From the NCBI GenBank assembly GCA_009599575.1, contig VWND01000003.1, forward strand, positions 1 to 64,000: a stretch of 64,000 nt of DNA, in the 5' to 3' direction. This document shows positions 5,601-44,986 of this stretch, piece after piece (the stretch's first letter is position 1; each line of letters opens with the position of its first letter). Made by a program: the position numbers and the translations under genes. Under the pieces are notes generated by a model. The model searched no databases. It saw only the letters and a program-made list of their open reading frames with translations, and had not been told where the DNA came from. Source of the DNA: Blumeriella jaapii. Taxonomy: Eukaryota > Ascomycota > Leotiomycetes > Helotiales > Drepanopezizaceae.

Positions 5601-5616
5601 AAAGTGAAGAATAATG

Positions 5617-16690: not shown

Positions 16691-16718
16691 CTGGTGACCA
16701 ACTTTCTTTGGTCACCAG
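16691..16718. promoter_or_regulatory. Terminal 11-6-11 inverted repeat, orientation B
   Basis: Arms CTGGTGACCAA-type and TTGGTCACCAG-type flank a 6-base centre reading CTTTCT on the plus strand. This 28-bp site is the exact reverse complement of the version at 28,200-28,227. Candidate recombination core site. Confidence 0.6.
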
Positions 16719-16731
16719 GGTCTGCCAAGAC

Positions 16732-16753
16732 TGGTCACCAACGTTGGTGACCA
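16732..16753. promoter_or_regulatory. 22-bp perfect palindrome at block terminus
   Basis: TGGTCACCAAC joined to GTTGGTGACCA, perfectly self-complementary. The half-site matches the arms of the adjacent 11-6-11 repeat in everted order. Present at all eight constant termini, 27 bases before the block end. Confidence 0.7.
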
Positions 16754-17220
16754 CCAAAATTCTCTCGCTTATAATATTAGTTATGGCCCCTTATTTTTAA
16801 ACCAAACTTACTGTAAAAATGAATTTTATAATAAAAATAAGAAAATTTGATAATTAAATTAATTTAATAATTTAACAAACCCAGCTTTAATTTAAATTAT
16901 TATAAAAATAATTATTTATTATTATAAAAGTAATTATAAATTGTTTTTTTTTTTTGCGTTTTCAAATTTATTAAATTTTTTTTTTTTTTTTTTTTATTAT
17001 ATAGCCAAAAGATCCAATAATATATTTATATTATTAATATTATATTGTATTTTAATAAGGGAAATTTGAAGTAATTAATTGCATTGTTATATTAATATGT
17101 AAAAGCTTAATTTTTATTTGTATTTTTATGTAAAAAGTTAAAAACAATATTAATATTTGCGTTTTCAAATGTAATTAATAATTTCAAATATATTTACGTT
17201 TATATTTATATTTAGATTTA

Positions 17221-17670
17221 AGTTTCTATTTCTATTCATATTTCTATTTATATTTATATTTATATTTCTATTTATATTTCTATTTATATTTCTATTTATA
17301 TTTCTATTTATATTTCTATTTATATTTCTATTTATATTTCTATTTCTATTTCTATTTATATTTTTAATTATATTTCTATTTATATTTCTATTTATATTTA
17401 TATTTATATTTATATTTCTATTTCTATTTAATTATTTTTATATCGAATGTTTTAATAAGTTTCAGACAGATAAAATATTAATAATTTAATTTGTAAAGAA
17501 AATAGAAATTTAATCTAATATTTCTATTTCTATTTCTATTTCTATTTATATTTCTATTTATATTTTTATTTATATTTCTATTTATATTTCTATTTAAATT
17601 TCTATTTCTATTTCTATTTCTATTTCTATTTCTATTTCTATTTCTATTTCTATTTCTATTTAATTTTTTT
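17221..17670. repeat. TTTCTA microsatellite split by a duplicated gene end
   Basis: CTATTT arrays at 17,221-17,430 and 17,520-17,665 enclose about 75 bases (about 17,440-17,516) that repeat the 3' end and stop region of the helicase gene found at 17,676-17,752. Confidence 0.75.
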
Positions 17671-17745
17671 ATATCAAATGTTTTAATAAATTTCAGACAG
17701 ATAAAATATTAATAATTTAATCTGTAAAAAAAATAAAAATTTAAT

Positions 17746-20700
17746 CTAAAATATTTCATCTGTTAAATTAATAAATATATATTTAAGACCTAAAATAGAT
17801 TCAGTATCTAATTCCGTAATATAAACCTGTTTAATAAAATTTTTTATAAAACTATTTATATTCGAAATAAATTTATTATCAAATAAATTTTAATAATAAT
17901 CGGAATTTTGATTTTTAGGCCATAATTCATTTCGTTTAAATAATAAACTTATTATTTAATAAACAAAATTTATTAATACATATTTATTTTCAAATTCGAA
18001 AGATTAACGTAATCGATAACAAATAACAGTAGGTAATAAACAAATAAAACAACAACTATTTTCGTATAAATAAAAACTATTTCGAATAAATTCTTTTTTT
18101 ATATTTTATGAAAATAAATCAAAATTCGCAAATTTAATATAATCGCGAATACAATAATTACTAATATTTTGCGTATAAATAAAATAACAATACGTGCAAA
18201 AATTATTATTTTCAAAACTTTGCGATAAAACCCAAATTAAATCATTTCTTGCGTTTTCGACTTCTTTTGTAATTATATTAATAATTTGCGCTTGTTTTTC
18301 GTAAATATTATTACGATTTATACAAAAATCGCAATTTGCACTAGTTTTAAAACACTAATCTAAAATAATATTATTTAAATATAAAAAAATTAATCGTTTA
18401 CGACAGACTACTTCGCGTAAATAACTTTTAATTAATCTTTTATTTAACGAATCGTTTTCGATTTCTTTTTCAAAACCTAAATTATAAAAAAACATCGATA
18501 TAGCTTCGTTTTTATCGCGGCCGGCCCGACTAAAACCTTATAAAAAACCGTTAAATTCGAAAGCTAATTCATAATAAATAATAGCACGTATATTAGAATA
18601 ATCAAAGCCTTTTTGCAAACCGCTAATACAAACTAAAATATTATAAAAAGTTGTATAATCGGTAGTAAAACTTTTTAAAACCGATTCCTTTTCATTTTTT
18701 AATAATTCAGACGTATATTTCGCGCAATCTAAAAATTCAGATAATTTATCGACAAGCGCAATTATAAAACAAAATATTATTATTTTATTTAAATATAATT
18801 TAAAATTCGATTTTAATTCAAAACAATATTCTTCGATTTCTTTAAATTTATTTTGCATACTTTTAGATTTAAAACTTAAAGCTCGATATAATATATTATT
18901 ACGTAAACAATCGGCCCGTATTTTAGCAAAAATTTGTAAATTTAATTTATTAATCAATTGATTTTCTTAATTTACGAATAATATACCAGTTAAAAATACT
19001 GTTTAAACTTTCAAATTAAAAATTTTTTTAAATTAATATATTATAAAACGATAATTAGCCGCAGTTATTAGCAAATAACACTCGTTTAATATAATTCTAT
19101 TAATTTTTCCTTTATTAATTTTATTTATTAATAAATTAATAAATATATCGTTTTTCAAAGTTTCAATAAAAATAAAAGTTATAATTTTAAATTCAAAATT
19201 ATCTTCGTAATTACTAACAGGAATTCCAAATTCATTTGCACGTTTAAATAAATCGCTTTTTAAACCAATTAACGGTACGATAATAATAGTAATTTTGACG
19301 TTAAATAAAGCAGCGCATAATAAATAAATCAATAATTTACCACTACTAGTAGGTAATATTCCTAATATATAAGGCACTTTTAATAAAATGCTTTTTAATA
19401 AAGTTTCTTATTCAGGAATAATAAAATCGATTTCAGAATTATTTAAAAATTCGCGTAATAATAATAATAACGTATTATCTCCGATAAGCATAATAAATAA
19501 ATAATTCAAATTTGTAAACTTAATTTTTTTATTAATTAAATTATATTCGAAAAACGCTTGTCTATTATGTTTTTTAGCTTTTGAATTATTATTTAATAAA
19601 AGCTTTTAATAACGTAATGCAAAAGTCAAAAATTTAGTTTTGTTTTTATTAATTTTAACTTTATTAATAATATCGAGATTATTTAAAAATGAATTATTAA
19701 TAATTTCTTTATTATTTAAGCCGAAAAAATCAAAATAACGAAAGCAAAATTGTAAATACTTTGATTGCAAATCGCCTCGCGTATTTTCGAAAGTATTCGA
19801 ATTACGGCCATAATTTAATTCTTCAGTTATTAACGAATAATTCATTTGATTCGCTTAAAGCTTATTATTCGTAAAACTATTATTAGAATTAATTAATATA
19901 ATAGAATTAATATCAAGATTTTCTTTCATAAAATATTTAATAATAGCTACAATAATTTAACGATATTTTTGAATAGTTAAAAATTGACCAATTTTTACTA
20001 AACAAAATAATTTTAAATAATTAAAAATATCGGCCGATTTTAAAAATTTTTTATTTAAATAAAAAAAATAAACACTAACTGTTTTATATTAATTATTATT
20101 CGCCGAAATACTAATATTTAATATTCTAATAAATAATTCTACTAAAACCATATAATATAATACTAAAATACTAACTTTTAAAAGAATATATCTTATATTC
20201 GAAGCTAGCTTTTCACTAGAATATTGCGATTTAAATTTACTAATATTCATAATAAATAAACCATTTCCAATATCAAGAAATAATTCTTTTTTATCTTTAC
20301 GCGAATTACAACTTCTAAATAAAATAAATTCGGTTCCTCGAATAGGTAAACCACAATTTAAATAAAAATCAATCAAAAATAACTTTTTTAAATTGAAATT
20401 TAATTTTAAATAAGCTTTAATTGCTTAGGGTTTAATTTGTAATTTTTAATTCGAAAAATTATAAAAACGAGCTCGTAATTCTGACGATTTAATAACTTTA
20501 TTAAATAACCATTTATCGTTTGCTTTTTTATTAGAATATAAATCTTTGAAAAATAAAAAAGGCGTCGTATTATTACGATCTTCGTATTTTGCAAAATCAT
20601 TTAACGTAATATAACTATATTCGCTTTCTAAAATATTAAAAAAAAAATCGTTTTTTAATATTTGCTCGGTTTCTAAAATTAATTCTTTAAATACAAATCG

Positions 20701-22605
20701 CAAATTATCAATACTTAAAACAACGTTTTTATAACTAACTGTATTTTCAGTCAAACTATAAATTATAACATTGCTATTGCTTAAAAGATTTTTATTTACA
20801 ATAAAACAAAACGATCGATATAATAGCAATTCGCTTAATGCAATATTCGAATTATTTTTAAAAAAATTATTTATTAATTTAGTTAAAATATCATTTAAAT
20901 TACTTTGAGAATTACAAACAAAAATATTTATAGCTTTATTTAAAAATATTAATTGCGAGCAATATATAAATTTAAAATAATAGCCAGATAAATCTAAAGT
21001 ATCTCGTAAAATAAAATTAGATTTTAAACTTTTAATTGCAAAATAAGCGTTAATAAAACTTTCGAATATATTTAAATTTTGTTTTTGAATTAAAATTTCA
21101 AAAATAATATTACTTAATAATTTTTGAAATTCGATTAACAAAGGATTACGATCAGTTTCAGAATTTTTATATTTTTTTAAAAATGAAATATAAAAATTTT
21201 GCTTTGTATCTACGTTTGATAATCTTCCAAAAAACCAAGAATTATTCGAAGTATTGCTATTATTACTAATATTACTTGAATTGCTATTATCCGATAATAT
21301 AGATTCATTGCTTATAAAATTATCGAATTCAATTTCAGAATTATCACTCGATAAATCGTCGATTAAAATTCGATTATTATAAGCTTTATTTATATTTCGA
21401 TTAATAGTTTTTATGAAATCTTTCGATAAAACTTCAATTTTTGAATCGTTTATATAATCAATCGCTTGTAATAATAAATCGTCAATTTTTTCTTCTAGTT
21501 TTATATCGATTTTAAAAATCGGTTTACTAGTTTTATATAATTTTAAATTATAACTACGAAAGAAAAAAGTAATAAAATTATTAAAAAAAACAAAATAATC
21601 GACGCGAAATTTCGATATAAGTAATATTTTAAATTCTTTATTACCTATTTTATTAGGCTTAAAACTATTTAAAATATTTAAATAACTTTTATTTATCCAA
21701 GTAATTTTATCTAAACTTAAATAAAAAATTTCTTAAATATTATCGATTATAAATTTAATTAATTCGTCGTTTTTATTTTAATTATATAATTCACATAAAT
21801 CGTATAATTCTTGCGGCTTATAATTTTAAATAAATTCAGCATATCGAGTTTTTGCTTGAAAATTGGTTAAATTATCGCTAAGATTTATTTTAAACGAATT
21901 TAAATTTTCGTAAAATAAAAATTCTTTTAAATTTAATTTTTCGATTAATAAATTTTAAGCTATTAACAAATCAGATGGTAAATCTTCTGAAATCTTATTA
22001 AAATAAATATTATCTTCGATTTCGTTTACTAAATTATTAATTTGTTTAATTTCGAAATACCATCTATTTTTTTCAAGTGATTAAATAGTTACAATTAAAT
22101 AATATTTATTAATATTATTTGCAATAATAATTTCGATTTTATTTGTATAAATTTTTTTAATATGTTTTTTGATATTTATACGATTTACTAAAATTAAAAA
22201 ACAAAAATCGCATTTAAAATTGTTTTGCGATATTTCGAGTTCTGGAAAAGGTTTTAAATCGAATTCTAATAAAAAAAGTCGTATTAATTCTAAACTGTTT
22301 TTCAAAAATTCGATTTTTAACGATTAATAAATAATTAAGCCTTGTTTAATTAATTTATTTCGATCGTTTTTTGAAATTAAATAAAAATGGTTTTTACGTA
22401 TATATTGTTCAAATCCAGTAATAAATAAATTACAAAACAAACAAAACAATAATTCAAAATCTATATAATAAAATAAAAATTGAAAATCAGATAAATCTTA
22501 AAACGCTTGTTTAGAATTTAAATCGTTAGTAATACGAAAGTTACTAAAATAATAAATATTAGCGCTGTTTATCAAAAGGGTGGAAGATATTTAAATGTTT
22601 GACAT
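17746..22605 (-). pseudogene. RIP-degraded copy of the C2H2-recombinase-RecQ gene
   Basis: Collinear with the block 1 gene over its whole length. Many TGG and CAG codons have become stops, so only fragments remain open: zinc-finger part near 22,081-22,305, central part 20,446-21,141, 20,089-20,376 and 19,606-19,845, helicase part 19,033-19,377 and 18,538-18,957. It keeps two informative ancestral states: TGG where block 1 has the TAG at 11,995, and a T6 run (about 19,570-19,575) where block 1 has T7, so its central and helicase frames are in register. The start ATG would be at 22,603-22,605. Not functional. Confidence 0.9.
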
Positions 22606-22670
22606 ATCGAATTTTTTAAAAAAAAATCGTATAATCGAAGAAATTCGAAAAAAATAAGAATAAGTTTTTT

Positions 22671-23425
22671 TTAGGGGTTTTTTTGAAGTTTTTGAAGTTT
22701 TTGAAGTTTTTGAAGTTTTTGAAGTTTTGGGAGTTTTAGGAGTTTTGGAAGTTTTGGTGGTTTTGGTAGTTTTGGGGGTTTTGAAGGTTTTGGAGGTTTT
22801 GATGGTTTTGGGGGTTTTGGGGGGGGGGTTTTGGGAGTTTTGATAATTTGGGTGGTGTATATGGTTTTGAAAAATTTTCAAAACTTTAATTAATTAAAGT
22901 TTTCGCGTAGCCTATAGCAACGATAATTTTAATTAAATAAATTATTCGAAAACTTTAATTAAATAAATTATTCGAAAACTTTAATTAAATAAATTATTCG
23001 AAAACTTTAATTAATTAAATTAAATTACAAAAAAAGACACTTACAGCAGAGGGCAGACTGATACACCGACTTATACTTATTCACCATATATACAAGATCC
23101 CGTGGGACAATTCACGGGCCGGAGCCATAGAATTTGCATGCAACTAGGTTTTATAAATAGAGTGGCGAAGCATTTAAAACAAAACGCCTGGCAACCCTTT
23201 TCCCGTGGCTTTACGAGTTCTCAATAGGATAAACAAAGGAATTAAACCTACAGAAACCATCAACCATTATATTATAAGTGCTTTAGGACTTTTGTCCCGA
23301 AAGCATACGATCGACTAGATTATATAAAATGTATAATTTTTTAAAGTTTATTTTGTGCGTATATGGGATTAGGCGAATATGGGTTTAAGCGAAAGTTAAA
23401 TTTTGCGACCGTACACGATTTTCTG
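22671..23425. other. Block 2 minisatellite and leader
   Basis: Counterpart of 12,605-13,360: G/T minisatellite (22,671-22,850), four ~26-bp repeats (about 22,890-23,020), then the hairpin-rich leader. The A/B-box-like segment is damaged here by C-to-T changes. Confidence 0.75.
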
Positions 23426-26400
23426 AACGTTTGCATTGCGATTAATAATAAATCGAATTGTATAAAATAAAGAAATTAAATAAGTTTTAATATTATATAA
23501 CCCAATATATAAAAAGAATTATACGATTCTATTAAGAAATGGGCTGGTATTTTACTAGTAAATACGAATACCGCAGGCTGTAGCATTAGGCTTTGGAGCC
23601 AAGCTATTCTTGATCCGTGCGTCAGTTCGTAAAACGCTTGCATTGCGATTAATAATAAATCGAATTTTTATAAAATAAAAAGAATTAAATAAGTTTTAAT
23701 ATTAATAACCTAAATATAAAAAGAATTGAACGATTCTATTAAGAAATGGGCTGGTGTTTTACTAGTAAATACGAATACCGCAGGCTGTAGAATTAGGCTT
23801 TGGAGCCAAGCTATTTTTGGTCCGTGCGTCAGTTCGTAAAACGCTTGCATTGCGATTAATAATAAATCGAATTTTATAAAATAAAAAGAATTAAATAAGT
23901 TTTAATATTAATAACCTAAATATAAAAAGAATTGAACGATTCTATTAAGAAATGGGCTGGTGTTTTACTAGTAAATACGAATACCGCAGGCTGTAGAATT
24001 AGGCTTTGGAGCCAAGCTATTCTTGGTCCGTGCGTCAGTTCGTAAAACGCTTGCATTGCGATTAATAATAAATCGAATTTTATAAAATAAAAAGAATTAA
24101 AAAAGTTTTAATATTAATAACCCAAATATAAAAAGAATTGAACGATTCTATTAAGAAATGGGCTGGTGTTTTACTAGTAAATACGAATACCGCAGGCTGT
24201 AGAATTAGGCTTTGGAGCCAAGCTTTTTATGGCCCGTGCGTCAGTTCGAAAAACGCTTGCATTGCGATTAATAATAAATCGAATTGTATGAAATAAGACG
24301 AATTAAATAAGTTTTAATATTAATAACCCAAATATAAAAAGAATTGAACGATTCTATTAAGAAATGGGCTGGTGTTTTACTAATAAATACGAATACCGCA
24401 GGCTATAGAATTAGGCTTTGAAGCCAAGTTATTCTTGGTCCGTGCGTTAATTCGTAGAACGTTTGCATTGCGATTAGTAATAGATCGAATTGTACAAAAT
24501 AAAACGAATTAAATAAGTTTTAATATTAATAACCCAAATATAAAAAGAATTAAACGATTTTATTAAGAAATGGGCTGGTGTTTTACTAATAAATACGAAT
24601 ACCGCAGGCTATAGAATTAGGCTTTGGAGCCAAGTTATTCTTGGTCCGTGCTTCAATTCGTAGAACGTTTGCATTGCGATTAGTAATAAATCGAATTGTA
24701 TGAAATAAAAAGAATTAAATAAGTTTTAATATTAATAACCCAAATATAAAAAGAATTAAACGATTTTATTAAGAAATGGGCTGGTGTTTTACTAGTAAAT
24801 ACGAATACCGCAGGCTGTAGAATTAGGCTTTGGAGCCAAGCTTTTTATGGCCCGTGCGTCAGTTCGAAGAACGCTTGCATTGCGATTAATAATAAATCGA
24901 ATTGTATGAAATAAGACGAATTAAATAAGTTTTAATATTAATAACCCAAATATAAAAAGAATTGAACGATTTTATTAAGAAATGGGCTGGTGTTTTACTA
25001 ATAAATACGAATACCGCAGGCTATAGAATTAGGCTTTGAAGCCAAGTTATTCTTGGTCCGTGCGTTAATTCGTAGAACGTTTGCATTGCGATTAGTAATA
25101 GATCGAATTGTACAAAATAAAAAAAGAATTAAATAAGTTTTAATATTAATAACCCAAAATATAAAAAGAATTAAACGATTCTATTAAGAAATGGGCTGGT
25201 GTTTTACTAGTAAATACGAATACCGCAGGCTGTAGAATTAGGCTTTGGAGCCAAGTTATTCTTGGTCCGTGCTTTAATTCGTAAAACGTTTGCATTGCGA
25301 TTAGTAATAGATCGAATTGTATAAAATAAAACGAATTAAATAAATTTTAATATTAATAAACCCAAATAAAAAAAAGAATTAAACGATTCTATTAAGAAAT
25401 GGGCTGGTGTTTTACTGGTAAATACGAATACCGCAGGCTATAGAATTAGGCTTTGAAGCCAAGTTATTCTTGGTCCGTGCGTTAATTCGTAAAACGTTTG
25501 CATTGCGATTAATAATAAATGGAATTGTACAAAATAAAAAGAATTAAATAAGTTTTAATATTAATAACCCAAATATAAAAAGAATTGAACGATTCTATTA
25601 AAAAATGGGCTGGTGTTTTACTAGTAAATACGAATACCGCAGGCTGTAGAATTAGGCTTTGGAGCCAAGTTATTCTTGGTCCGTGCTTTAATTCGTAAAA
25701 CGTTTGCATTGCGATTAGTAATAGATCGAATTGTACAAAATAAAACGAATTAAATAAGTTTTAATATTAATAACCCAAATATAAAAAAAATTAAACGATT
25801 CTATTAAGAAATGGGCTGGTGTTTTACTAGTAAATACGAATACCGCAGGCTATAGAATTAGGCTTTAGAGCCAAGTTATTCTTGGTCCGTGCTTTAATTC
25901 GTAGAACGTTTGCATTGCGATTAGTAATAGATCGAATTGTACAAAATAAAACGAATTAAATAAGTTTTATTATTAATAACCCAAATATAAAAAAAATTGA
26001 ACGATTTTATTAAGAAATGGGCTGGTGTTTTACTAGTAAATACGAATACCGCAGGCTGTAGAATTAGGCTTTGGAGCCAAGTTATTCTTGGTCCGTGCTT
26101 TAATTCGTAAAACGTTTGCATTGCGATTAGTAATAGATCGAATTGTACAAAATAAAAAAAAATTAAATAACTTTTAATATTAATAACCCAAATATAAAAA
26201 GAATTAAACGATTCTATTAAGAAATGGGCTAGTGTTTTACTAGTAAATACGAATACCGCAGGCTGTAGAATTAGGCTTTGGAGCCAAGTTATTCTTGGTC
26301 CGTGCTTTAATTCGTAGAACGTTTGCATTGCGATTAGTAATAGATCGAATTGTACAAAATAAAAAAAATTAAATAACTTTTAATATTAATAACCCAAATA

Positions 26401-27143
26401 TAAAAAGAATTAAACGATTCTATTAAGAAATGGGCTGGTGTTTTACTAGTAAATACGAATACCGCAGGCTGTAGAATTAGGCTTTGGAGCCAAGTTATTC
26501 TTGGTCCGTGCTTTAATTCGTAGAACGTTTGTATTGCGATTAGTAATAGATCGAATTGTACAAAATAAAAAGAATTAAATAACTTTTAATATTAATAACC
26601 CAAATATAAAAAGAATTGAACGATTTTATTAAGAAATGGGCTGGTGTTTTACTAGTAAATACGAATACCGCAGGCTGTAGAATTAGGCTTTGGAGCCAAG
26701 TTATTTTTGGTCCGTGCTTTAATTCGTAGAACGTTTGCATTGCGATTAGTAATAGATCGAATTGTACAAAATAAAAAAAATTAAATAACTTTTAATATTA
26801 ATAACTCAAATATAAAAAGAATTAAACGATTCTATTAAAAAATGGGCTGGTGTTTTACTAGTAAATACGAATACCGCAGGCTGTAGAATTAGGCTTTGGA
26901 GCCAAGTTATTCTTGGTCCGTGCTTTAATTCGTAGAACGTTTGCATTGCGATTAGTAATAGATCGAATTGTACAAAATAAAAAGAATTAAATAAGTTTTA
27001 ATATTAATAACCCAAATATAAAAAGAATTGAACGATTTTATTAAGAAATGGGCTGGTGTTTTACTAGTAAATACGAATACCGCAGGCTGTAGAATTAGGC
27101 TTTGGAGCCAAGTTATTCTTGGTCCGTGCGTTAATTCGTAGAG
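23426..27143. repeat. 206-bp satellite, eighteen monomers (block 2)
   Basis: Largest 206-bp array in the window. It includes recognisable variants also found in blocks 3 and 4, such as one with TTACTGGTAAATACG (near 25,412). A frame of 135 codons at 25,921-26,328 arises where small indels bring two monomers into register. Confidence 0.92.
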
Positions 27144-28289
27144 ATTTAAATAACGTTATTATTAATTAATAATATTTATAAGCTTTTGCGTATAAAATAT
27201 TAATAATTTGTAAGCTAAATACGAATTTAATTTTATTTTTAAAATCGAAAAATTCTTGCGAAAAAACCGATTTAGTAACCAAAAAAAGTCGGGTACCAGG
27301 GTCTGCCAAGATTAGGGTTAAAAGGGGGGGTTATTACAACTTTTTAATTTATTAATCGTATTTATAAGCTTTTGCGTATAAAAGATTAATAATTAATAAG
27401 CTGAATACAAATATAATTTTATTTTTAAAATCGAATAATCTTTGCGAAAAAACCGACCTGGTGACCAAAGAAAGTCGGTTACCAGGGTCTGCCAAGATTA
27501 GGGTTAGAGGGGGGGTTATTACAACTTTTTAATTTATTAATCGTATTTATAAGCTTTTGCGTACAAAAGATTAATAATTATTAAATTGAATACAAATATA
27601 ATTTTATTTTTAAAATCGAATAATCTTTGCGAAAAAACCGACCTGGTGACCAAAGAAAGTCGGTTACCAAAGTCTGCCAAGATTAGGGTTAAAAGGGGGG
27701 GGGTTATTACAACGTTTTAATTTATTAATCGTATTTATAAGCTTTTGCGTATAAAAGATTAATAATTAATAAGCTGAATACAAATATAATTTTATTTTTA
27801 AAATCGAATAATCTTTGCGAAAAAACCGACCTGGTGACCAAAGAAAGTCGGTTACCAGGGTCTGCCAAGATTAGGGTTAGAGGGGGGGTTATTACAACTT
27901 TTTAATTTATTAATCGTATTTATAAGTTTTTGCGTACAAAAGATTAATAATTAATAAGCTGAATACAAATATAATTTTATTTTTAAAATCGAATAATTTT
28001 TGCGAAAAAACCGACCTGGTGACCAAAGAAAATTGGTTACCAGGGTCTGCCAAGATTAAGGTTAGAAAGGGGTAGTAATAACTTTTTAATTAATTAATAG
28101 TATTTGTAAGCTTTTGCGTACAAAAGATAAATAATTAATAAGCTGAATACGAATATAATTTTATTTTTCAAATCGAATAATTTTTGCGAAAAAACCGACC
28201 TGGTGACCAAAGAAAGTTGGTCACCAGGGTCTGCCAAGACTGGTCACCAACGTTGGTGACCACCAAAATTCTCTCGCTTATAATATTAG
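27144..28289. repeat. 186-bp satellite (block 2)
   Basis: Six monomers with the GATTAGGGTTAG seed and G runs of about six to nine. The fifth has a shortened G run (AGAAAGGGGTAG near 28,065). Ends in the two palindromic sites. Confidence 0.9.
28200..28227. promoter_or_regulatory. Terminal 11-6-11 inverted repeat, orientation A
   Basis: Perfect arms CTGGTGACCAA and TTGGTCACCAG around the spacer AGAAAG, followed by the 22-bp palindrome. Confidence 0.6.
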
Positions 28290-28375
28290 GGGTGGAAAAT
28301 ACTTGAATGTTTGACATATCGAATTTTTTTAAAAAAAATCGTATAATCGAAGAAATTCGAAGAAAATAAAAATAA

Positions 28376-31939: not shown

Positions 31940-34323
31940 AAATTTATTAATATTTATAATAAAATAAACCATTTCCAATATCAAAAATAATTCTTTTTTT
32001 TTTTACGCGAATTACAATTTCTAAATGAAGTAAGTTCGGTTCCTCGAATAGGTAAACTATAATTTAAATAAAAATCAATCAAAAATAACTTTTTTAAATT
32101 GAAATTTAATTTTAAATAAGCTTTAATTGCTTAGGGTTTAATTTGTAATTTTTAATTCGAAAAATTATAAAAACGAATTCGTAATTCTGACGATTTAATA
32201 ATTTTATTAAATAACCATTTATCGTTTGCTTTTTTATTAGGATGTAAATTTTTAAAAGATAAAAAAGGCGTCGTATTATTACGATTTTCGTATTTTGCAA
32301 AATCATTTAACGTAATATAACTATATTCGCTTTCTGAAATATTAAAAAGAAAATCGTTTTTTAATATTTGCTCGGTTTTTAAAATTAATTTTTTAAATAC
32401 AAATCGCAAATTGTTAATACTTAAAACAACGTTTTTATAACTAACTGTATTTTCAGTCAAATTATGAATTGTAATATTGCTATTGCTTGAAAGATTTTTA
32501 TTTACAATAAAACAAAACGATCGGTATAATAGCAATTCGCTTAATGCAATATTCGAATTATTTTTAAAAAAATTATTTATTAATTTAATTAAAATATTAT
32601 TTAAATTACTTTGAGAATTACAAACAAAAATATTTATAGCTTTATTTAAAAATATTAATTGCGAGCAATATATAAAATTTAAAATAATAGCCAGATAAAT
32701 TTAGAATATTTCGTAAAGTAAAATTAAATCTTAACCTTTTAATTACAAAATAAGCGTTAATAAAACTTTCGAATATATTTAAATTTTGTTTTTAAATTAA
32801 AATTTCAAAAATAATATTATTTAATAATTTTTGAAATTCGATTAACACAAAAATTACGATCAGTTTCAGAATTTTTATATTTTTTTAAAAATGAAATATA
32901 AGAATTTTGCTTTGTATCTACGTTTAATAATCTTCCAAAAAACTAAGAATTATTCGAAGTATTGCTATTATTACTAATATTACTTAAATTGCTATTATCC
33001 GATAATATAAATTTATTGCTTATAAAATTATCGAATTTAATTTCAGAATTATTACTCGATAAATCGTCGATTAAAATTCGATTATTATAAACTTTATTTA
33101 TATTTCGATTAATAGTTTTTATGAAATTTTTCGATAAAACTTCAATTTTTGAATCGTTTATATAATTAATCGCTTATAATAATAAATCGTTAATTTTTTC
33201 TTTTAGTTTTGTATCGATTTTAAAAATCGGTTTATTAGTTTTATATAATTTTAAATTATAACTACGAAAGAAAAAAGTAATAAAATTATTAAAAAAAGCA
33301 AAATAATCGACGCGAGATTTCGATATAAATAATATTTTAAATTCTTTATTATTTATTTTATTAGGCTTAAAATTATTTAAAATATTTAAATAACTTTTAT
33401 TTATCCAAGTAATTTTATCTAAACTTAAATAAAGAATTTCTTAAATATTATCGATTATAAATTTAATTAATTCGTCGTTTTTATTTTAATTATATAATTC
33501 ATATAAATCGTATAATTCTTGCGGCTTATAATTTTGAATAAATTCAGCATATCGATTTTTTTTGCTTGAAAATTGGTTAAATTATCGCTAAGATTTATTT
33601 TAGACGAATTTAAATTTTCGTAAAATAAAGATTTTTTCAAATTTAATTCTTCGATTAATAAATTTTAAATTATTAACAAATCAGATGATAAATCTTCTGA
33701 AATCTTATTAAAATAAATATTATTTTCGATTTCGTTTACTAAATTATCAATTTGTTTAACTTCGAAATACCATCTATTTCTTTCAAATGATTAAGTAGTT
33801 ATATAATTAAATAATATTTATTAATATTATTTGCAACAATAATTTCGATTTTATTTGTATAAATTTTTTTAATATGTTTTTTAATATTTATACGATTTGC
33901 TAGAATTAAAAAAACAAAAATCGTATTTAAAATTGTTTTGCGATATTTCGAGTTCTGGAAAAGGTTTTAAATCGAATTTTAATGAAAAAAAAAAAGTCGT
34001 ATTAATTCTAAACTGTTTTTCAAAGATTCGATTTTTAACGATTAATAAATAATTAAGCCTTGTTTAATTAATTTATTTCGATCGTTTTTTGAAATTGAAT
34101 GGAAATGGTTTTTACGTATATATTATTCAAATTCAGTAATAAATAAATTACAAAATAAACAAAGCAATAATTCAAAATTTATATAATAAAATAAAAATTA
34201 AAAATCAGGTAAATCTTGAAACGCTTGTTTAGGATTTAAATCGTTAGTAGTACGAAAGTTACTAAAATAATAAATATTAGCGCTGTTTATCAAAAGGGTG
34301 GAAAATACTTGAATGTTTGACAT
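31940..34323 (-). pseudogene. Truncated, RIP-degraded gene copy (N-terminal and central part only)
   Basis: Collinear with block 1 from about 10,185 to 12,540. The helicase domain and the recombinase-like H/Y motifs are absent because the copy stops at the block 3/4 junction. It has many stops plus small indels, for example an A run near 33,990. It retains TGG at the site of the block 1 nonsense codon (near 33,768), which makes two paralogues against one. The start ATG equivalent is at 34,321-34,323. Confidence 0.88.
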
Positions 34324-34379
34324 ATCGAATTTTTTTAAAAAAAATCGTATAATCGAAGAAATTCGAAGAAAATAAAAAT

Positions 34380-35146
34380 AAGTTTTTTTAGAGGTTTTTT
34401 TGAAGTTTTTAAAGTTTTTGAAGTTTTTGAAGTTTTGGGAGTTTTGGGAGTTTGGGAGTTTGGAAGTTTTGGTAGTTTTGGTAGTTTTGGGGGGTTTTGG
34501 AGGTTTTGGAGGTTTTGGTGGTTTTGGGGGTTTTGAGGGGGGGTTTTGGGAGTTTTGATAATTTGGGGGTGGTGTGTGTGGTGGTTTTGAAAAATTTTCA
34601 AAACTTTAATTAATTAAAGTTTTCGCGTAGCCTATAGCAACGATAATTTTAATTAAATAAATTATTCGAAAACTTTAATTAAATAAATTATTCGAAAACT
34701 TTAATTAATTAAATTATTCGAAAACTTTAATTAATTATTAATTAAATTACAAAAAAGACATTTACAGCAAAGGGCAGATTGATAACACCGACTTATACTT
34801 ATTCACCATATATACAAAACCCCGTGGGACAATTTACGGGCCGGAGCTATAAAATTTGCATGCAACTAGGTTCTATAAATAAAGTGGCGGAGCATTAAGG
34901 CAGAACGCCTGGCAACCCTTTTCCCGTGGCTTTACGGGTTCTCAATAGGGTAACGAAGGAATTGAACTTATAAAAACTATTAACCATTATACCATAAGTG
35001 CTTTAGGACTTTTTGTCCCGAAAGCATACGAACGATTAGGTTATATAAAATATATAATTTTTTAAAGTTTATTTTGTGCGTATATGGGATTAGGCGAATA
35101 TGGGTTTAAGCGAAAGTTAAATTTTGCGACCGTGCACGATTTTCTG
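34380..35146. other. Block 4 minisatellite and leader
   Basis: G/T minisatellite (34,380-34,580), ~26-bp repeats and hairpin-rich leader. The minisatellite length puts its K/P/T frame out of register with the downstream finger region, which argues that this tract is not normally translated. Confidence 0.7.
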
Positions 35147-37833
35147 AACGTTTGCATTGCGATTAATAATAAATCGAATTGTATAAAATAAAAAAATTAA
35201 ATAAGTTTTAATATTAATAACCCAAATATAAAAAGAATTATACGATTCTATTAAAAAAATGGGCTGGTATTTTACTAGTAAATACGAATACCGCAGGCTG
35301 TAGCATTAGGCTTTGGAGCCAAGCTATTCTTGGTCCGTGCGTCAGTTCGTAAAACGCTTGCATTGCGATTAATAATAAATCGAATTATATAAAATAAAAA
35401 AAGAATTAAATAAGTTTTAATATTAATAACCCAAATATAAAAAGAATTGAACGATTCTATTAAGAAATGGGCTGGTGTTTTACTAGTAAATACGAATACC
35501 GCAGGCTGTAGAATTAGGCTTTGGAGCCAAGCTATTCTTGGTCCGTGCGTCAGTTCGTAAAACGCTTGCATTGCGATTAATAATAAATCGAATTTTATAA
35601 AATAAAAAGAATTAAAAAAGTTTTAATATTAATAACCCAAATATAAAAAGAATTGAACGATTCTATTAAGAAATGGGGCTGGTGTTTTACTAGTAAATAC
35701 GAATACCGCAGGCTGTAGAATTAGGCTTTGGAGCCAAGCTTTTTATGGCCCGTGCGTCAGTTCGAAAAACGCTTGCATTGCGATTAATAATAAATCGAAT
35801 TGTATGAAATAAGACGAATTAAATAAGTTTTAATATTAATAACCCAAATATAAAAAGAATTGAACGATTCTATTAAGAAATGGGCTGGTGTTTTACTAAT
35901 AAATACGAATACCGCAGGCTATAGAATTAGGCTTTGAAGCCAAGTTATTCTTGGTCCGTGCGTTAATTCGTAGAACGTTTGCATTGCGATTAGTAATAGA
36001 TCGAATTGTACAAAATAAAACGAATTAAATAAGTTTTAATATTAATAACCCAAATATAAAAAGAATTAAACGATTTTATTAAGAAATGGGCTGGTGTTTT
36101 ACTAGTAAATACGAATACCGCAGGCTATAGAATTAGGCTTTGGAGCCAAGTTATTCTTGGTCCGTGCTTCAATTCGTAGAACGTTTGCATTGCGATTAGT
36201 AATAAATCGAATTGTATGAAATAAAAAGAATTAAATAAGTTTTAATATTAATAACCCAAATATAAAAAGAATTAAACGATTTTATTAAGAAATGGGCTGG
36301 TGTTTTACTAGTAAATACGAATACCGCAGGCTGTAGAATTAGGCTTTGGAGCCAAGCTTTTTATGGCCCGTGCGTCAGTTCGAAGAACGCTTGCATTGCG
36401 ATTAATAATAAATCGAATTGTATGAAATAAGACGAATTAAATAAGTTTTAATATTAATAACCCAAATATAAAAAGAATTGAACGATTTTATTAAGAAATG
36501 GGCTGGTGTTTTACTAATAAATACGAATACCGCAGGCTATAGAATTAGGCTTTGAAGCCAAGTTATTCTTGGTCCGTGCGTTAATTCGTAGAACGTTTGC
36601 ATTGCGATTAGTAATAGATCGAATTGTACAAAATAAAAAAGAATTAAATAAGTTTTAATATTAATAACCCAAATATAAAAAAAGAATTAAACGATTCTAT
36701 TAAGAAATGGGCTGGTGTTTTACTAGTAAATACGAATACCGCAGGCTGTAGAATTAGGCTTTGGAGCCAAGTTATTCTTGGTCCGTGCTTTAATTCGTAA
36801 AACGTTTGCATTGCGATTAGTAATAGATCGAATTGTATAAAATAAAACGAATTAAATAAATTTTAATATTAATAACCCAAATATAAAAAGAATTAAACGA
36901 TTCTATTAAGAAATGGGCTGGTGTTTTACTGGTAAATACGAATACCGCAGGCTATAGAATTAGGCTTTGAAGCCAAGTTATTCTTGGTCCGTGCGTTAAT
37001 TCGTAAAACGTTTGCATTGCGATTAATAATAAATGGAATTGTACAAAATAAAAAGAATTAAATAAGTTTTAATATTAATAACCCAAATATAAAAAGAATT
37101 GAACGATTCTATTAAAAAATGGGCTGGTGTTTTACTAGTAAATACGAATACCGCAGGCTGTAGAATTAGGCTTTGGAGCCAAGTTATTCTTGGTCCGTGC
37201 TTTAATTCGTAAAACGTTTGCATTGCGATTAGTAATAGATCGAATTGTACAAAATAAAACGAATTAAATAAGTTTTAATATTAATAACCCAAATATAAAA
37301 AGAATTAAACGATTCTATTAAGAAATGGGCTGGTGTTTTACTAGTAAATACGAATACCGCAGGCTATAGAATTAGGCTTTGGAGCCAAGTTATTCTTGGT
37401 CCGTGCTTTAATTCGTAGAACGTTTGCATTGCGATTAGTAATAGATCGAATTGTACAAAATAAGACGAATTAAATAAGTTTTATTATTAATAACCCAAAT
37501 ATAAAAAAAATTGAACGATTTTATTAAGAAATGGGCTGGTGTTTTACTAGTAAATACGAATACCGCAGGCTGTAGAATTAGGCTTTGGAGCCAAGTTATT
37601 CTTGGTCCGTGCTTCAATTCGTAGAACGTTTGCATTGCGATTAGTAATAAATCGAATTGTACAAAATAAGACGAATTAAATAAGTTTTAATATTAATAAC
37701 CCAAATATAAAAAGAATTGAACGATTCTATTAAGAAATGGGCTGGTGTTTTACTAGTAAATACGAATACCGCAGGCTGTAGAATTAGGCTTTGGAGCCAA
37801 GTTATTTTTGGTCCGTGCGTTAATTCGTAGAGA
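35147..37833. repeat. 206-bp satellite, thirteen monomers (block 4)
   Basis: Near-copy of the block 3 array, differing mostly in homopolymer length and a few transitions. Confidence 0.9.
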
Positions 37834-38999
37834 CTTAAATAACGTTATTATTAATTAATAATATTTATAAGCTTTTGCGTATAAAATATTAATAATTTGT
37901 AAGCTAAATACGAATTTAATTTTATTTTTAAAATCGAAAAATTCTTGCGAAAAAAAAAAAACCGATTTAGTGACCAAAAAAAGTCGGGTACCAGGGTCTG
38001 CCAAGATTAGGGTTAGAAGGGGGGGTTATTTACAACTTTTAAATTTATTAATCGTATTTATAAGCTTTTTGCGCATAAAAGATTAATAATTAATAAGTTG
38101 AATACAAATATAAATTTATTTTTAAAATCGAATAATTTTTGCGAAAAAAACCGACCTGGTGACCAAAGAAAGTCGGTTACCAGGGTCTGCCAAGATTAGG
38201 GTTAGAGGGGGGGGTTATTACAACTTTTTAATTTATTAATCGTATTTATAAGCTTTTGCGCATAAAAGATTAATAATTAATAAGTTGAATACAAATATAA
38301 TTTTATTTTTCAAATCGAATAATTTTTGCGAAAAAAAACCGACCTGGTGACCAAAGAAAGTCGGTTACCAAGGTCTGCCAAGATTAGGGTTAGAGGGGGG
38401 GGTTATTACAACTTTTTAATTTATTAATCGTATTTATAAGCTTTTGCGTACAAAAGATTAATAATTAATAAGTTGAATACAAATATAATTTTTTATTTTA
38501 AAATCGAATAATTTTTTTTGCGAAAAAACCGACCTGGTGACCAAAGAAGTTGGTTACCAGGGTCTGCCAAGATTAGGGTTAAAGGGGGGGGTTATTACAA
38601 CTTTTTAATTTATTAATCGTATTTATAAGCCTTTGCGTACAAAAGATTAATAATTAATAAGTTGAATACAAATATAATTTTATTTTTAAAATCGAATAAT
38701 TTTTGCGAAAAAAAACCGACCTGGTGACCAAAGAAGTTGGTTACCAGGGTCTGCCAAGATTAGGGTTAGAAGGGGGGGTTATTACAACTTTTTAATTTAT
38801 TAATCGTATTTATAAGCTTTTGCGTACAAAAGATAATTAATTAATAAGCTGAATACGAATATAATTTTATTTTTCAAATCGAATAATTTTTGCGAAAAAA
38901 AAAACCGACCTGGTGACCAAAGAAAGTTGGTCACCAGGGTCTGCCAAGACTGGTCACCAACGTTGGTGACCACCAAAATTCTCTCGCTTATAATATTAG
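37834..38999. repeat. 186-bp satellite (block 4)
   Basis: Six monomers with telomere-like seed and G runs. Ends with the two palindromic sites and CTTATAATATTAG. Confidence 0.9.
38910..38937. promoter_or_regulatory. Terminal 11-6-11 inverted repeat, orientation A
   Basis: CTGGTGACCAA, AGAAAG, TTGGTCACCAG, identical to 28,200-28,227. Followed by the 22-bp palindrome. Confidence 0.6.
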
Positions 39000-39751
39000 T
39001 TTTAATATTAATTTTTAAAAATAAATAAATTTATAAAAATTTTATTAAAAAATAGGCTGGTATTTTATTAGTAAATACGAATACCGCAAGCTGTAAAATT
39101 AAGCTATAAAGCCGAGTTATTATTAATTTGTTTTTTGATTTTACGAACGCTTATTTTACGATTAATATTTAATCGAATTATATATATATATTATTAGTAT
39201 ATAATTTCGAAAAGATTTATTATAATTTAAAATTTAACAAAAAATATATATTATAAACGAATTGAAATTTTTATATTTTTTGAATTTGATTTTTCATAAT
39301 CGATTAATTATTAATAAATAAATGGCTATATCGATTTTTTCGAAATTTATATTATAAATTAAAAAGTGGCAGCTTCGATTAATTCGAAAATTAAGCTAAA
39401 AGAAAGGGGGGGGGCAGCATCGAATCGAATAATTCGAAAAATAAGCTAAAAAAAAAAAAAAGGGTTGGCTGCGCCGATTAATCGAGAAATAAGCTGAAAA
39501 AAAAAAAAGAAGGGATTTAAATAACGTTATTATTAATTAATAATATTTATAAGCTTTTGCGCATAAAATATTAATAATTTGTAAGCTAAATACGAATTTA
39601 ATTTTATTTTTAAAATCGAAAAATTCTTGCGAAAAAACCGATTTAATAACCAAAAAAAGTCGGATACCAAAGTTTGCCAAAAATAAGGTTAAAAAAAGGG
39701 GTTATTACAACTTTTTAATTTATTAATTATATTTATAAGCTTTTACGTATA

Positions 39752-39774
39752 AGGGTTAGGGTTAGGGTTAGGGG
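39752..39774 (+). repeat. Interstitial telomeric repeat (TTAGGG x3)
   Basis: Three full TTAGGG repeats preceded by AGGG and followed by an extra G. They sit exactly at the junction between a truncated 186-type monomer and a truncated 206-bp monomer. The G-rich strand reads left to right. Confidence 0.85.
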
Positions 39775-41234
39775 TTAATAATAAATCGAATTGTATGAAA
39801 TAAGACGAATTAAATAAGTTTTAATATTAATAACCCAAATATAAAAAGAATTGAACGATTCTATTAAGAAATGGGCTGGTGTTTTACTAGTAAATACGAA
39901 TACCGCAGGCTGTAGAATTAGGCTTTGGAGCCAAGTTATTCTTGGTCCGTGCTTCAATTCGTAGAACGTTTGCATTGCGATTAGTAATAGATCGAATTGT
40001 ACAAAATAAAAAGAATTAAATAAGTTTTAATATTAATAACCCAAATATAAAAAGAATTGAACGATTCTATTAAGAAATGGGCTGGTGTTTTACTAGTAAA
40101 TACGAATACCGCAGGCTGTAGAATTAGGCTTTGGAGCCAAGTTATTTTTGGTCCGTGCGTTAATTCGTAGAGACTTAAATAACGTTATTATTAATTAATA
40201 ATATTTATAAGCTTTTGCGTATAAAATATTAATAATTTGTAAGCTAAATACGAATTTAATTTTATTTTTAAAATCGAAAAATTCTTGCGAAAAAACCGAT
40301 TTAGTGACCAAAAAAAGTCGGGTACCAGGGTCTGCCAAGATTAGGGTTAGAAGGGGGGGTTATTACAACTTTTAAATTTATTAATCGTATTTATAAGCTT
40401 TTGCGCATAAAAGATTAATAATTAATAAGTTGAATACAAATATAAATTTATTTTTAAAATCGAATAATTTTTGCGAAAAAACCGACCTGGTGACCAAAGA
40501 AAGTCGGTTACCAGGGTCTGCCAAGATTAGGGTTAGAGGGGGGGGTTATTACAACTTTTTAATTTATTAATCGTATTTATAAGCTTTTGCGCATAAAAGA
40601 TTAATAATTAATAAGTTGAATACAAATATAATTTTATTTTTCAAATCGAATAATTTTTGCGAAAAAACCGACCTGGTGACCAAAGAAAGTCGGTTACCAG
40701 GGTCTGCCAAGATTAGGGTTAGAGGGGGGGGTTATTACAACTTTTTAATTTATTAATCGTATTTATAAGCTTTTTGCGTACAAAAGATTAATAATTAATA
40801 AGTTGAATACAAATATAATTTTATTTTTAAAATCGAATAATTTTTGCGAAAAAAAAACCGACCTGGTGACCAAAGAAGTTGGTTACCAGGGTCTGCCAAG
40901 ATTAGGGTTAGAGGGGGGGGGTTATTACAACTTTTTAATTTATTAATCGTATTTATAAGCCTTTGCGTACAAAAGATTAATAATTAATAAGTTGAATACA
41001 AATATAATTTTATTTTTAAAATCGAATAATTTTTGCGAAAAAACCGACCTGGTGACCAAAGAAGTTGGTTACCAGGGTCTGCCAAGATTAGGGTTAGAGG
41101 GGGGGGGTTATTACAACTTTTTAATTTATTAATCGTATTTATAAGCTTTTGCGTACAAAAGATAATTAATTAATAAGCTGAATACGAATATAATTTTATT
41201 TTTCAAATCGAATAATTTTTGCGAAAAAACCGAC

Positions 41235-41262
41235 CTGGTGACCAAAGAAAGTTGGTCACCAG
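41235..41262. promoter_or_regulatory. Terminal 11-6-11 inverted repeat, orientation A
   Basis: Same sequence as 28,200-28,227, at the end of block 5. Confidence 0.6.
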
Positions 41263-42078
41263 GGTCTGCCAAGACTGGTCACCAACGTTGGTGACCACCA
41301 AAATTCTCTCGCTTATAATATTAGTTTTAATATTAATTTTTAAAAATAAATAAATTTATAAAATTTTATTAAAAAATAGGCTGGTATTTTATTAGTAAAT
41401 ACGAATACCGCAAGCTGTAAAATTAAGCTATAAAGCCGAGTTATTATTAATTTGTTTTTTGATTTTACGAACGCTTATTTTACGATTAATATTTAATCGA
41501 ATTATATATATATATTATTAGTATATAATTTCGAAAAGATTTATTATAATTTAAAATTTAACAAAAAATATATATTATAAACGAATTGAAATTTTATATT
41601 TTTTGAATTTGATTTTTCATAATCGATTAATTATTAATAAATAAATGGCTATATCGATTTTTTTCGAAATTTATATTATAAATTAAAAAGTGGCAGCTTC
41701 GATTAATTCGAAAATTAAGCTAAAAGAAAGGGGGGGGGGCAGCATCGAATAATTCGAAAAATAAGCTTAAAAAAAAAAAAGGGTTGGCTGCGCCGATTAA
41801 TCGAGAAATAAGCTGAAAAAAAAAAAAAGAAGGGATTTAAAAATAACGTTATTATTAATTAATAATATTTATAAGCTTTTGCGCATAAAATATTAATAAT
41901 TTGTAAGCTAAATACGAATTTAATTTTATTTTTAAAATCGAAAAATTCTTGCGAAAAAACCGATTTAATAACCAAAAAAAGTCGGATACCAAAGTTTGCC
42001 AAAAATAAGGTTTAAAAAAAGGGGTTATTACAACTTTTTTTTTAATTTATTAATTATATTTATAAGCTTTTACGTATA

Positions 42079-42101
42079 AGGGTTAGGGTTAGGGTTAGGG
42101 G
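42079..42101 (+). repeat. Interstitial telomeric repeat (TTAGGG x3), second copy
   Basis: Identical tract and identical junction to 39,752-39,774, carried by the block 5/6 duplication. Confidence 0.85.
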
Positions 42102-43570
42102 TTAATAATAAATCGAATTGTATGAAATAAGACGAATTAAATAAGTTTTAATATTAATAACCCAAATATAAAAAGAATTGAACGATTCTATTAAGAAATG
42201 GGCTGGTGTTTTACTAGTAAATACGAATACCGCAGGCTGTAGAATTAGGCTTTGGAGCCAAGTTATTCTTGGTCCGTGCTTTAATTCGTAGAACGTTTGC
42301 ATTGCGATTAGTAATAGATCGAATTGTACAAAATAAAAAGAATTAAATAAGTTTTAATATTAATAACCCAAATATAAAAAGAATTGAACGATTCTATTAA
42401 GAAATGGGCTGGTGTTTTACTAGTAAATACGAATACCGCAGGCTGTAGAATTAGGCTTTGGAGCCAAGTTATTTTTGGTCCGTGCGTTAATTCGTAGAGA
42501 CTTAAATAACGTTATTATTAATTAATAATATTTATAAGCTTTTGCCTATAAAATATTAATAATTTGTAAGCTAAATACGAATTTAATTTTATTTTTAAAA
42601 TCGAAAAAATTCTTGCGAAAAAAACCGATTTAGTGACCAAAAAAAGTCGGGTACCAGGGTCTGCCAAGATTAGGGTTAGAAGGGGGGGTTATTACAACTT
42701 TTTAATTTATTAATCGTATTTATAAGCTTTTGCGCATAAAAGATTAATAATTAATAAGTTAAATACAAATATAAATTTATTTTTAAAATCGAATAATTTT
42801 TGCGAAAAAACCGACCTGGTGACCAAAGAAAGTCGGTTACCAGGGTCTGCCAAGATTAGGGTTAGAAGGGGGGGTTATTACAACTTTTTAATTTATTAAT
42901 CGTATTTATAAGCTTTTGCGTATAAAAGATTAATAATTAATAAGTTGAATACAAATATAATTTTATTTTTAAAATCGAATAATTTTTGCGAAAAAAAACC
43001 GACCTGGTGACCAAAGAAAGTCGGTTACCAGGGTCTGCCAAGATTAGGGTTAGAAGGGGGGGTTATTACAACTTTTTAATTTATTAATCGTATTTATAAG
43101 CTTTTGCGTATAAAAGATTAATAATTAATAAGTTGAATACAAATATAAATTTATTTTTAAAATCGAATAATTTTTGCGAAAAAACCGACCTGGTGACCAA
43201 AGAAAGTCGGTTACCAGGGTCTGCCAAGATTAGGGTTAGAGGGGGGGGGGTTATTACAACTTTTTAATTTATTAATCGTATTTATAAGCTTTTGCGTACA
43301 AAAGATTATTAATTAGTAAGCTGAATACGAATATAATTTTATTTTTCAAATCGAATAATTTTTGCGAAAAAAACCGACCTGGTGACCAAAGAAAGTCGGT
43401 TACCAGGGTCTGCCAAGATTAGGGTTAGAGGGGGGGGGGGGGTTATTACAACTTTTTAATTTATTAATCGTATTTATAAGCTTTTGCGTACAAAAGATAA
43501 TTAATTAATAAGCTGAATACGAATATAATTTTATTTTTCAAATCGAATAATTTTTTGCGAAAAAACCGAC

Positions 43571-43598
43571 CTGGTGACCAACTTTCTTTGGTCACCAG
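43571..43598. promoter_or_regulatory. Terminal 11-6-11 inverted repeat, orientation B
   Basis: Centre reads CTTTCT, reverse complement of the orientation A site. Confidence 0.6.
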
Positions 43599-43660
43599 GG
43601 TCTGCCAAGACTGGTCACCAACGTTGGTGACCACCAAAATTCTCTCGCTTATAATATTAG

Positions 43661-44286
43661 GTTACCAGGGTCTGCCAAGATTAGGGTTTAGAGGGGGGGG
43701 TTATTACAACGTTTTAATTTATTAATCGTATTTATAAGCTTTTGCGTATAAAAGATTAATAATTAATAAGTTGAATACAAATATAATTTTATTTTTAAAA
43801 TCGAATAATTTTTGCGAAAAAACCGACCTGGTGACCAAAGAAAGTCGGTTACCAGGGTCTGCCAAGATTAGGGTTAGAGGGGGGGTTATTACAACTTTTT
43901 AATTTATTAATCGTATTTATAAGCTTTTGCGTACAAAAGATTAATAATTAATAAGCTGAATACAAATATAATTTTATTTTTAAAATCGAATAATTTTTGC
44001 GAAAAAACCGACCTGGTGACCAAAGAAAATTGGTTACCAGGGTCTGCCAAGATTAGGGTTAGAAGGGGGTAGTAATAACTTTTTAATTAATTAATAGTAT
44101 TTGTAAGCTTTTGCGTACAAAAGATAATTTATTAATAAGCTGAATACGAATATAATTTTATTTTTCAAATCGAATAATTTTTGCGAAAAAACCGACCTGG
44201 TGACCAAAGAAAGTTGGTCACCAGGGTCTGCCAAGACTGGTCACCAACGTTGGTGACCACCAAAATTCTCTCGCTTATAATATTAG
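43661..44286. mobile_element. Block 7: short 186-bp-repeat block
   Basis: Starts inside a monomer at GTTACCAGGGTCTGCC and contains three to four monomers and the constant terminus (orientation A site at 44,197-44,224). Confidence 0.75.
44197..44224. promoter_or_regulatory. Terminal 11-6-11 inverted repeat, orientation A
   Basis: Same sequence as 28,200-28,227. Confidence 0.6.
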
Positions 44287-44547
44287 AAAATTAGTTACCA
44301 GGGTCTGCTAAGATTAGGGTTAGAAGGGGGTAGTAATAACTTTTTAATTAATTAATAGTATTTGTAAGCTTTTGCGTACAAAAGATAATTAATTAATAAG
44401 CTGAATACGAAAATAATTTTATTTTTCAAATCGAATAATTTTTGCGAAAAAACCGACCTGGTGACCAAAGAAAGTTGGTCACCAGGGTCTGCCAAGACTG
44501 GTCACCAACGTTGGTGACCACCAAAATTCTCTCGCTTATAATATTAG
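44287..44547. mobile_element. Block 8: minimal block
   Basis: Only 261 bases: part of one monomer (starting AAAATTAGTTACCAGG), one further monomer and the constant terminus, with the orientation A site at 44,458-44,485. The smallest unit that still carries both palindromes. Confidence 0.75.
44458..44485. promoter_or_regulatory. Terminal 11-6-11 inverted repeat, orientation A
   Basis: Same sequence as 28,200-28,227. A 68-codon plus-strand frame across it is an artefact of the repeat. Confidence 0.6.
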
Positions 44548-44986
44548 GGTCTGCCAAGATTAGGGTTAGAGGGGGGGGGGGGTTATTACAACTTTTTAAT
44601 TTATTAATCGTATTTATAAGCTTTTGCGTACAAAAGATTATTAATTAATAAGCTGAATACGAATATAATTTTATTTTTCAAATCGAATAATTTTTGCGAA
44701 AAAAACCGACCTGGTGACCAAAGAAAGTCGGTTACCAGGGTCTGCCAAGATTAGGGTTAGAGGGGGGGGTTATTACAACTTTTGAATTTATTAATCGTAT
44801 TTATAAGCTTTTGCGTACAAAAGATAATTAATTAATAAGCTGAATACGAATATAATTTTATTTTTCAAATCGAATAATTTTTGCGAAAAAACCGACCTGG
44901 TGACCAACTTTCTTTGGTCACCAGGGTCTGCCAAGACTGGTCACCAACGTTGGTGACCACCAAAATTCTCTCGCTTATAATATTAG
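44548..44986. mobile_element. Block 9: last block of the array
   Basis: Starts at GGTCTGCCAAG. Two to three 186-bp monomers, terminus with orientation B site (44,897-44,924), then an abrupt change to RIPped retrotransposon DNA at TTATTAAAAATTATCG. Confidence 0.75.
44897..44924. promoter_or_regulatory. Terminal 11-6-11 inverted repeat, orientation B
   Basis: Centre reads CTTTCT, as at 16,691 and 43,571. Confidence 0.6.

Follow-up and report, generated by a model that had tools for sequence, protein, structure and literature searches.

The perfect 28-bp site identifies the inner end of a fungal cassette that lies at probable chromosome ends. It is probable that this cassette is of the telomere-linked helicase (TLH) kind, that its inner end has been joined one-sidedly to chromosome ends, most likely by its own recombinase, and that an old inversion of the site's spacer has been copied onward with it. 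The window analyzed here covers the opening 64 kb of a contig of 1.78 Mb, and the genome searched comprises 47.4 Mb in 91 contigs.

The 28-bp site and the chain of cassettes

An exact search for CTGGTGACCAA-N6-TTGGTCACCAG returned eight sites in the window, where 100 shuffles give an expectation of 0. Their starts and spacers (five AGAAAG and three CTTTCT; Table 1) agree with those listed in an earlier note on this DNA, and so does the constant flank orientation that it described: all eight have AAACCGAC on the 5' side and GGTCTGCC on the 3' side, and the flanks are never reversed. The arms had been put at 11 bp (11-6-11); they pair over 12 bp when the site is folded, which gives a core layout of 12-6-12. 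This is the geometry of a dif/lox-type core site, with inverted arms within 11-13 bp and a spacer within 6-8 bp, the ranges described for tyrosine recombinase sites in the part of PMC3212892 used here. A further 19 sites in the window carry 1-3 mismatches (17 AGAAAG and 2 AGAAAA) and fall within 186-bp tandem arrays as internal units. The perfect site closes such an array as its final unit, with a sharp sequence edge 62 bp downstream. The genome-wide collection of sites that the earlier note had proposed as a check contains 59 perfect copies of two orientation types, which read AGAAAG (31), CTTTCT (25), AAAAAG (2) and TTTTCT (1) when oriented by their flanks.

The last 96 bases of the cassette fold as three hairpins, the 28-bp site being the first (z -6.9). 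The inner end reads ...AATATTAG in 58 of the 59 copies, and the remaining copy runs into N. Beyond it lies either non-cassette DNA or another cassette cut at one of various points. A dif/lox-type core site would have its crossover inside the spacer; the joins were found 62-63 bp beyond the perfect site, outside its spacer, in 58/59 copies.

Nine cassettes follow one another in the window (Table 1), and eight of these lack their outer parts. From the sharp edge outward, the order is three hairpins, 186-bp array, 206-bp array, OrsD-like ORF, recombinase ORF, RecQ-type helicase ORF and AT-rich DNA. At the join 31936/31937, an internal 186-bp unit meets the recombinase ORF and the usual inner end is absent; this join looks illegitimate and of another kind than the rest. 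No tRNA genes or Rfam families were found in the 64-kb window. AT-rich short-period satellites (units TTCTATTATA, TTTTATTTCTA, TATTTATATTTC etc.) occur in the cassette outer zone at 445-1330, 1634-2030, 7279-7605 and 17199-17661. Telomere-like DNA occurs in every 186-bp unit (15646-16730 and later arrays), as ATTAGGGTTAG with a run of G after it. A 15-bp unit, GCTGCCAGTGGTATG, is present in seven near-perfect copies at 58255-58358, ahead of a decayed retroelement-like stretch, and at 59900-62300 we noted by eye retroelement-like pieces, in which frames are broken and which include a zinc-knuckle motif and words resembling reverse transcriptase.

Table 1. Cassettes, ORFs, repeats and perfect sites in the 64-kb window.
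Feature	Position	Strand	Basis
Cassette 1 outer AT-rich zone; reaches contig start, outer terminus beyond assembly	1..7276	.	Composition
RecQ-type helicase ORF, 587 aa, TTG start as listed	7677..9440	-	Helicase_C 6e-14, DEAD 5e-13, RecQ5 5e-10
Predicted tyrosine recombinase ORF, 802 aa; catalytic domain ~9565-11097	9496..11904	-	Alignment, structure model
OrsD-like C2H2 zinc-finger ORF	11995..12825	-	PF12013 E 2e-4, 22.2 bits, under cut-off 26.6
Cassette 1 206-bp tandem array, 11 copies	13360..15627	.	
Cassette 1 186-bp tandem array, ~6 copies; internal units with imperfect palindromes	15646..16730	.	
Perfect site, spacer CTTTCT	16691..16718	+	Exact search
Small hairpin GTCT-GCCA-AGAC	16720..16731	+	Fold
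Second perfect palindrome TGGTCACCAACGTTGGTGACCA	16732..16753	+	Fold
Cassette 1 exact inner end AATATTAG, abutting cassette cut at TTATGG	16773..16780	+	
Cassette 2, without outer part	16781..28289	.	
Perfect site, AGAAAG	28200..28227	+	Exact search
Cassette 3, without outer part and inner end	28290..31936	.	
Cassette 4, without outer part	31937..38999	.	
Perfect site, AGAAAG	38910..38937	+	Exact search
Cassette 5, starts within 206-bp array	39000..41324	.	
Perfect site, AGAAAG	41235..41262	+	Exact search
Cassette 6, starts within 206-bp array	41325..43660	.	
Perfect site, CTTTCT	43571..43598	+	Exact search
Cassette 7, starts within 186-bp unit	43661..44286	.	
Perfect site, AGAAAG	44197..44224	+	Exact search
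Cassette 8, starts within 186-bp unit	44287..44547	.	
Perfect site, AGAAAG	44458..44485	+	Exact search
Cassette 9, innermost, starts within 186-bp unit; non-cassette DNA after	44548..44986	.	
Perfect site, CTTTCT	44897..44924	+	Exact search

Proteins of the cassette

The cassette ORFs correspond to an OrsD-like zinc finger, a predicted tyrosine recombinase and a RecQ-type helicase, with the recombinase between the other two. The OrsD (PF12013) cut-off of 26.6 bits is passed by the relatives P0009, P0021, P0026 and P0036. At the start of the OrsD-like ORF (12619-12788), 9-bp G-rich repeats are translated as a stretch rich in Pro, Lys and Thr, and the protein may in fact begin at a later ATG. 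No reverse transcriptase domain was recognised in the tested cassette ORFs.

The recombinase ORF has no match in Pfam and 0 matches among PDB sequences. Its protein has 34 relatives of 681-1839 aa, 12 of which carry OrsD, DEAD and Helicase_C together; the few named ones are from Hyaloscypha and Pseudogymnoascus, which makes a Leotiomycete fungus the likely source of this DNA. In a 28-row alignment the catalytic set R-K-(H)xxR-H/W-Y is present in order: R276, R402, H443 and Y452 are found in 28/28 rows and K312 in 27/28, and the HxxR box opens with Q in 28/28. The H-to-Y spacing is 9, as it is in Cre and lambda Int. A first fold from 5 rows was unusable (pLDDT 31.9); the 28-row structure model (pLDDT 75.9, pTM 0.67, with low confidence around H443 and Y452) has the catalytic-domain fold of tyrosine recombinases. 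With VIA-align the top 26 rows are all tyrosine recombinases, the best being XerA, XerH and Cre, and the protelomerase TelA comes further down; Foldseek alone gave nothing significant (best E 0.65). An hhalign comparison with P0036 was set aside at 7% identity. From the alignment and the model we identify the unmatched cassette protein as a tyrosine recombinase with predicted strand cleavage and joining activity.

Inheritance of spacer orientation

The orientation of the spacer tracks the flank haplotype. In an alignment covering the final unit and the 62 bp after it, with the table read by eye, the 26 CTTTCT-type copies all have the same flank haplotype, different from those of the 33 AGAAAG-type copies; the flipped copy C64:498867 carries the CTTTCT-type haplotype only in its last ~146 bp. 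The imperfect internal units in the fetched DNA are all in AGAAAG orientation (184/184). When homopolymer runs were levelled, four AGAAAG copies (C3:38910, C3:41235, C9:8697, and C60:7414) agreed at every position with C3:16691, a flipped copy, over 127-158 bp upstream, and three of the four (not C60:7414) were also identical to it across all 62 bp downstream. Because AGAAAG and CTTTCT copies share near-identical flanks, the spacer was truly turned round; the loop is reversed with stem and near flanks unchanged, as in a hairpin-loop inversion. Perfect hairpins can mislead assembly, but the 25 CTTTCT copies are at separate places with differing neighbours and all on one haplotype, so that an assembly artefact at the hairpin is hardly conceivable.

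Copies with a common junction form seven groups (17 copies), and the orientation is concordant in 6/7; in the discordant pair, on C19, the upstream haplotypes differ too. A common junction may represent a single event that was duplicated or two events at one place. Since several junctions are duplicates, site counts do not equal event counts.

The earlier note had held that its reading would fail if all CTTTCT sites traced to one duplicated ancestor with no variation within a locus. The findings come close to this, with 26 copies on one flank haplotype and most same-junction groups concordant; yet every tree, built from 340, 440, or 1080 bp of flank, needs three orientation changes (shuffled labels need ~18-20). 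The flipped copies came together as a single clade in 2% of the bootstrap trees of one analysis and 0% in two others. A forced single clade was not rejected with 340 and 440 bp of flank (p-AU 0.23 and 0.36) and was rejected with 1080 bp (p-AU 0.008), where the tree had 55/59 rows, four rows under 500 bp being left out. In the 1080-bp and 440-bp trees, branches with good support call for two changes or more, and in the 440-bp tree the flipped C64:498867 clusters with four AGAAAG copies while the AGAAAG copy C29:43237 is placed among flipped ones. The 1080-bp tree was likely misled by array register and joins, because 450 bp adjoining the site on C74 are 99% identical to the flipped copy C3:16691 and C64:498867 differs from other copies past ~150 bp; the equivalent comparison for C75 went out of register. 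A single event can account for the flip, the trees giving no proof of one, and two or three separate flips are possible. It is safe to state that spacer orientation is inherited, without a running switch, and goes back to one to three flips followed by copying. The flip looks like a rare inherited accident.

A crossover between two such sites leaves the spacer unturned relative to fixed flanks, whereas inversion of a hairpin loop turns it; this speaks against a dif/lox-like switch in which the cassette recombinase would flip the spacer repeatedly, and so do the tracking of the flank haplotype and the concordance of same-junction groups. Such a switch could draw on the fit of arms and spacer to tyrosine recombinase site geometry (PMC3212892, in the part used), on the enzyme encoded in the cassette, on the nearly even split of 26/59 vs 33/59 and on the three changes asked by the trees, and we rate it as very unlikely. 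What stands of the tyrosine-recombinase reading in the earlier note is the geometry and the recombinase encoded in the same cassette, not the recurrent flipping by recombination.

Spacer inversion as such is an ordinary and already known kind of event. In rRNA genes, 69 mutation clusters from template switching have the loop reversed and the perfect stem unchanged, as described in the portion of PMC8794818 consulted. No special enzyme is needed for the inversion, because that source describes loops turned round at hairpins with perfect pairing. The cassette resembles these cases in its turned loop and intact stem, and differs in that the inversion is inside a spreading cassette and has been copied to 26 sites. 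In our preferred explanation, both orientations would derive from one hairpin-loop inversion (or very few) in one lineage, produced by replication template switching or cruciform turnover and then copied with the cassette.

Proposed joining at the inner end and relation to known chromosome-end systems

At the 49 junctions with a readable uninterrupted homologue, the join is preceded by G in 34 cases, by A in 14 and by T in 1; an A before the join may be a mutated G, the DNA being AT-rich. One to four bases are shared at the join, and the inner end alone is observed. Some joins fall in the spacer of imperfect internal units, which served as targets. Among the copies joining inside 186-bp arrays, 9/11 do so at internal palindromes, or 5/7 with same-junction groups merged; the background for the latter is 8/31 G-preceded places (~0.015 by hand arithmetic, the hypothesis having been chosen post hoc), which is suggestive only of a preference for internal palindromes.

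In contigs >90 kb, 49 sites are located at 24 contig ends, all within 62.6 kb and with the helicase side outward in 24/24; the other 10 sites are on 9 contigs <50 kb, four of them nearer the opposite end. A cassette that supplies the chromosome end itself could persist in just one polarity, which would explain this pattern without targeting. The repeat (TTAGGG)4 is absent across the assembly, the contigs stopping short of the telomere. The outer-zone piece 5200-6858 is present at 29 places, own copy included, where the zone runs on past TTATGG with no boundary seen; a first reading of TTATGGCCCC as the outer end of the cassette was dropped because of this outward homology. Six of the 16 fetched contig ends start in the same sequence (by eye). 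At the ends of contigs C64 and C91 the outermost DNA differs from that of the other fetched contig ends in being a degenerate AACCATAACTTAA-like repeat.

Because the contigs end before the telomere, the second side of a two-sided insertion could lie off the contig. An ordinary two-ended tyrosine-recombinase transposon (a Crypton-like circle), located near chromosome ends by chance, would have its outer end and the other target half beyond the contig starts, and would account for the recombinase gene, the exact inner end and the short shared bases at the target. We consider it unlikely: one polarity at 24/24 contig ends is unexpected for free insertion, the shared start of 6/16 contig ends looks as if the chromosome end were near, and no boundary is seen where the outer zone continues. 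Cryptons, as described in the part of PMC3212892 available, are similar in being fungal tyrosine recombinase DNA elements without inverted terminal repeats; each of their two ends has a direct repeat of 4 or 6 bp, and one end is observed for the cassette. The word helicase is absent from the main text of that paper.

It could also be argued that the cassette has simply spread as subtelomeric DNA, through homologous recombination or break-induced replication, its inner edge being an old homology limit. Subtelomeric blocks with RecQ genes are shared among chromosome ends in another fungus (PMC4522978, as far as consulted), and some junctions here are duplicated. Homology would not be expected, however, to give one and the same purine-preceded breakpoint beside many unrelated sequences, which makes this account rather improbable. 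We favor one-sided joining. The inner end would be joined to a chromosome end after G (or A), with loss of the DNA formerly outside, most likely through action of the cassette-encoded recombinase at the end with its hairpins; after several rounds, chains of outer-truncated cassettes such as that in the window would result.

The Drosophila HeT-A/TART telomere arrays are retrotransposons in head-to-tail chains at chromosome ends, with the fixed end inward and outer parts missing. The cassettes are arranged in the same way, but no reverse transcriptase was recognised in their tested ORFs and the genome has a telomerase domain; telomerase loss was dropped as an idea, one Telomerase_RBD match (with one in-frame TAG) having been found. 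Integron attC sites are used by a tyrosine recombinase, have an end that folds as single-strand hairpins, and go to loose targets where one G matters. The cassette likewise combines a tyrosine recombinase with an end predicted to fold into hairpins, but it does not belong to a bacterial gene cassette system. By this analogy, TLH regions of this kind might be mobile chromosome ends, in which recombinase and helicase would use the three-hairpin inner end as a folded single strand, attC-like, and join it to nearly any purine-ended target in place of everything formerly outside, and the recombinase would build and repair ends beside telomerase; we put this forward as a long shot.

Fungal chromosome-end RecQ genes with OrsD alongside are already known. 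The cassette has the RecQ-type helicase gene that marks TLH regions and, like those of Ustilago (UTASa/UTASb), Magnaporthe, Fusarium, and M. graminicola in the descriptions available, combines a low-GC RecQ-type gene with OrsD nearby, tandem repeats and truncated copies; those regions lie at chromosome ends, and the cassette copies at probable ones. Unlike TLH regions as so described, it has a tyrosine recombinase between OrsD and the helicase, and its inner end meets unrelated DNA at an exact point. Among the best literature matches, with little subscription coverage, no paper joined TLH with a tyrosine recombinase or reported a constant inner edge. Fungal chromosome-end RecQ genes have long been known and their role is unsettled. 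The flip represents a clean example of a hairpin-loop inversion that was propagated as its carrier was copied. With an exact inner edge, and with a recombinase belonging to the same protein family, TLH would become testable as a chromosome-end-swapping element, and such an element would help explain the fast turnover of subtelomeres.
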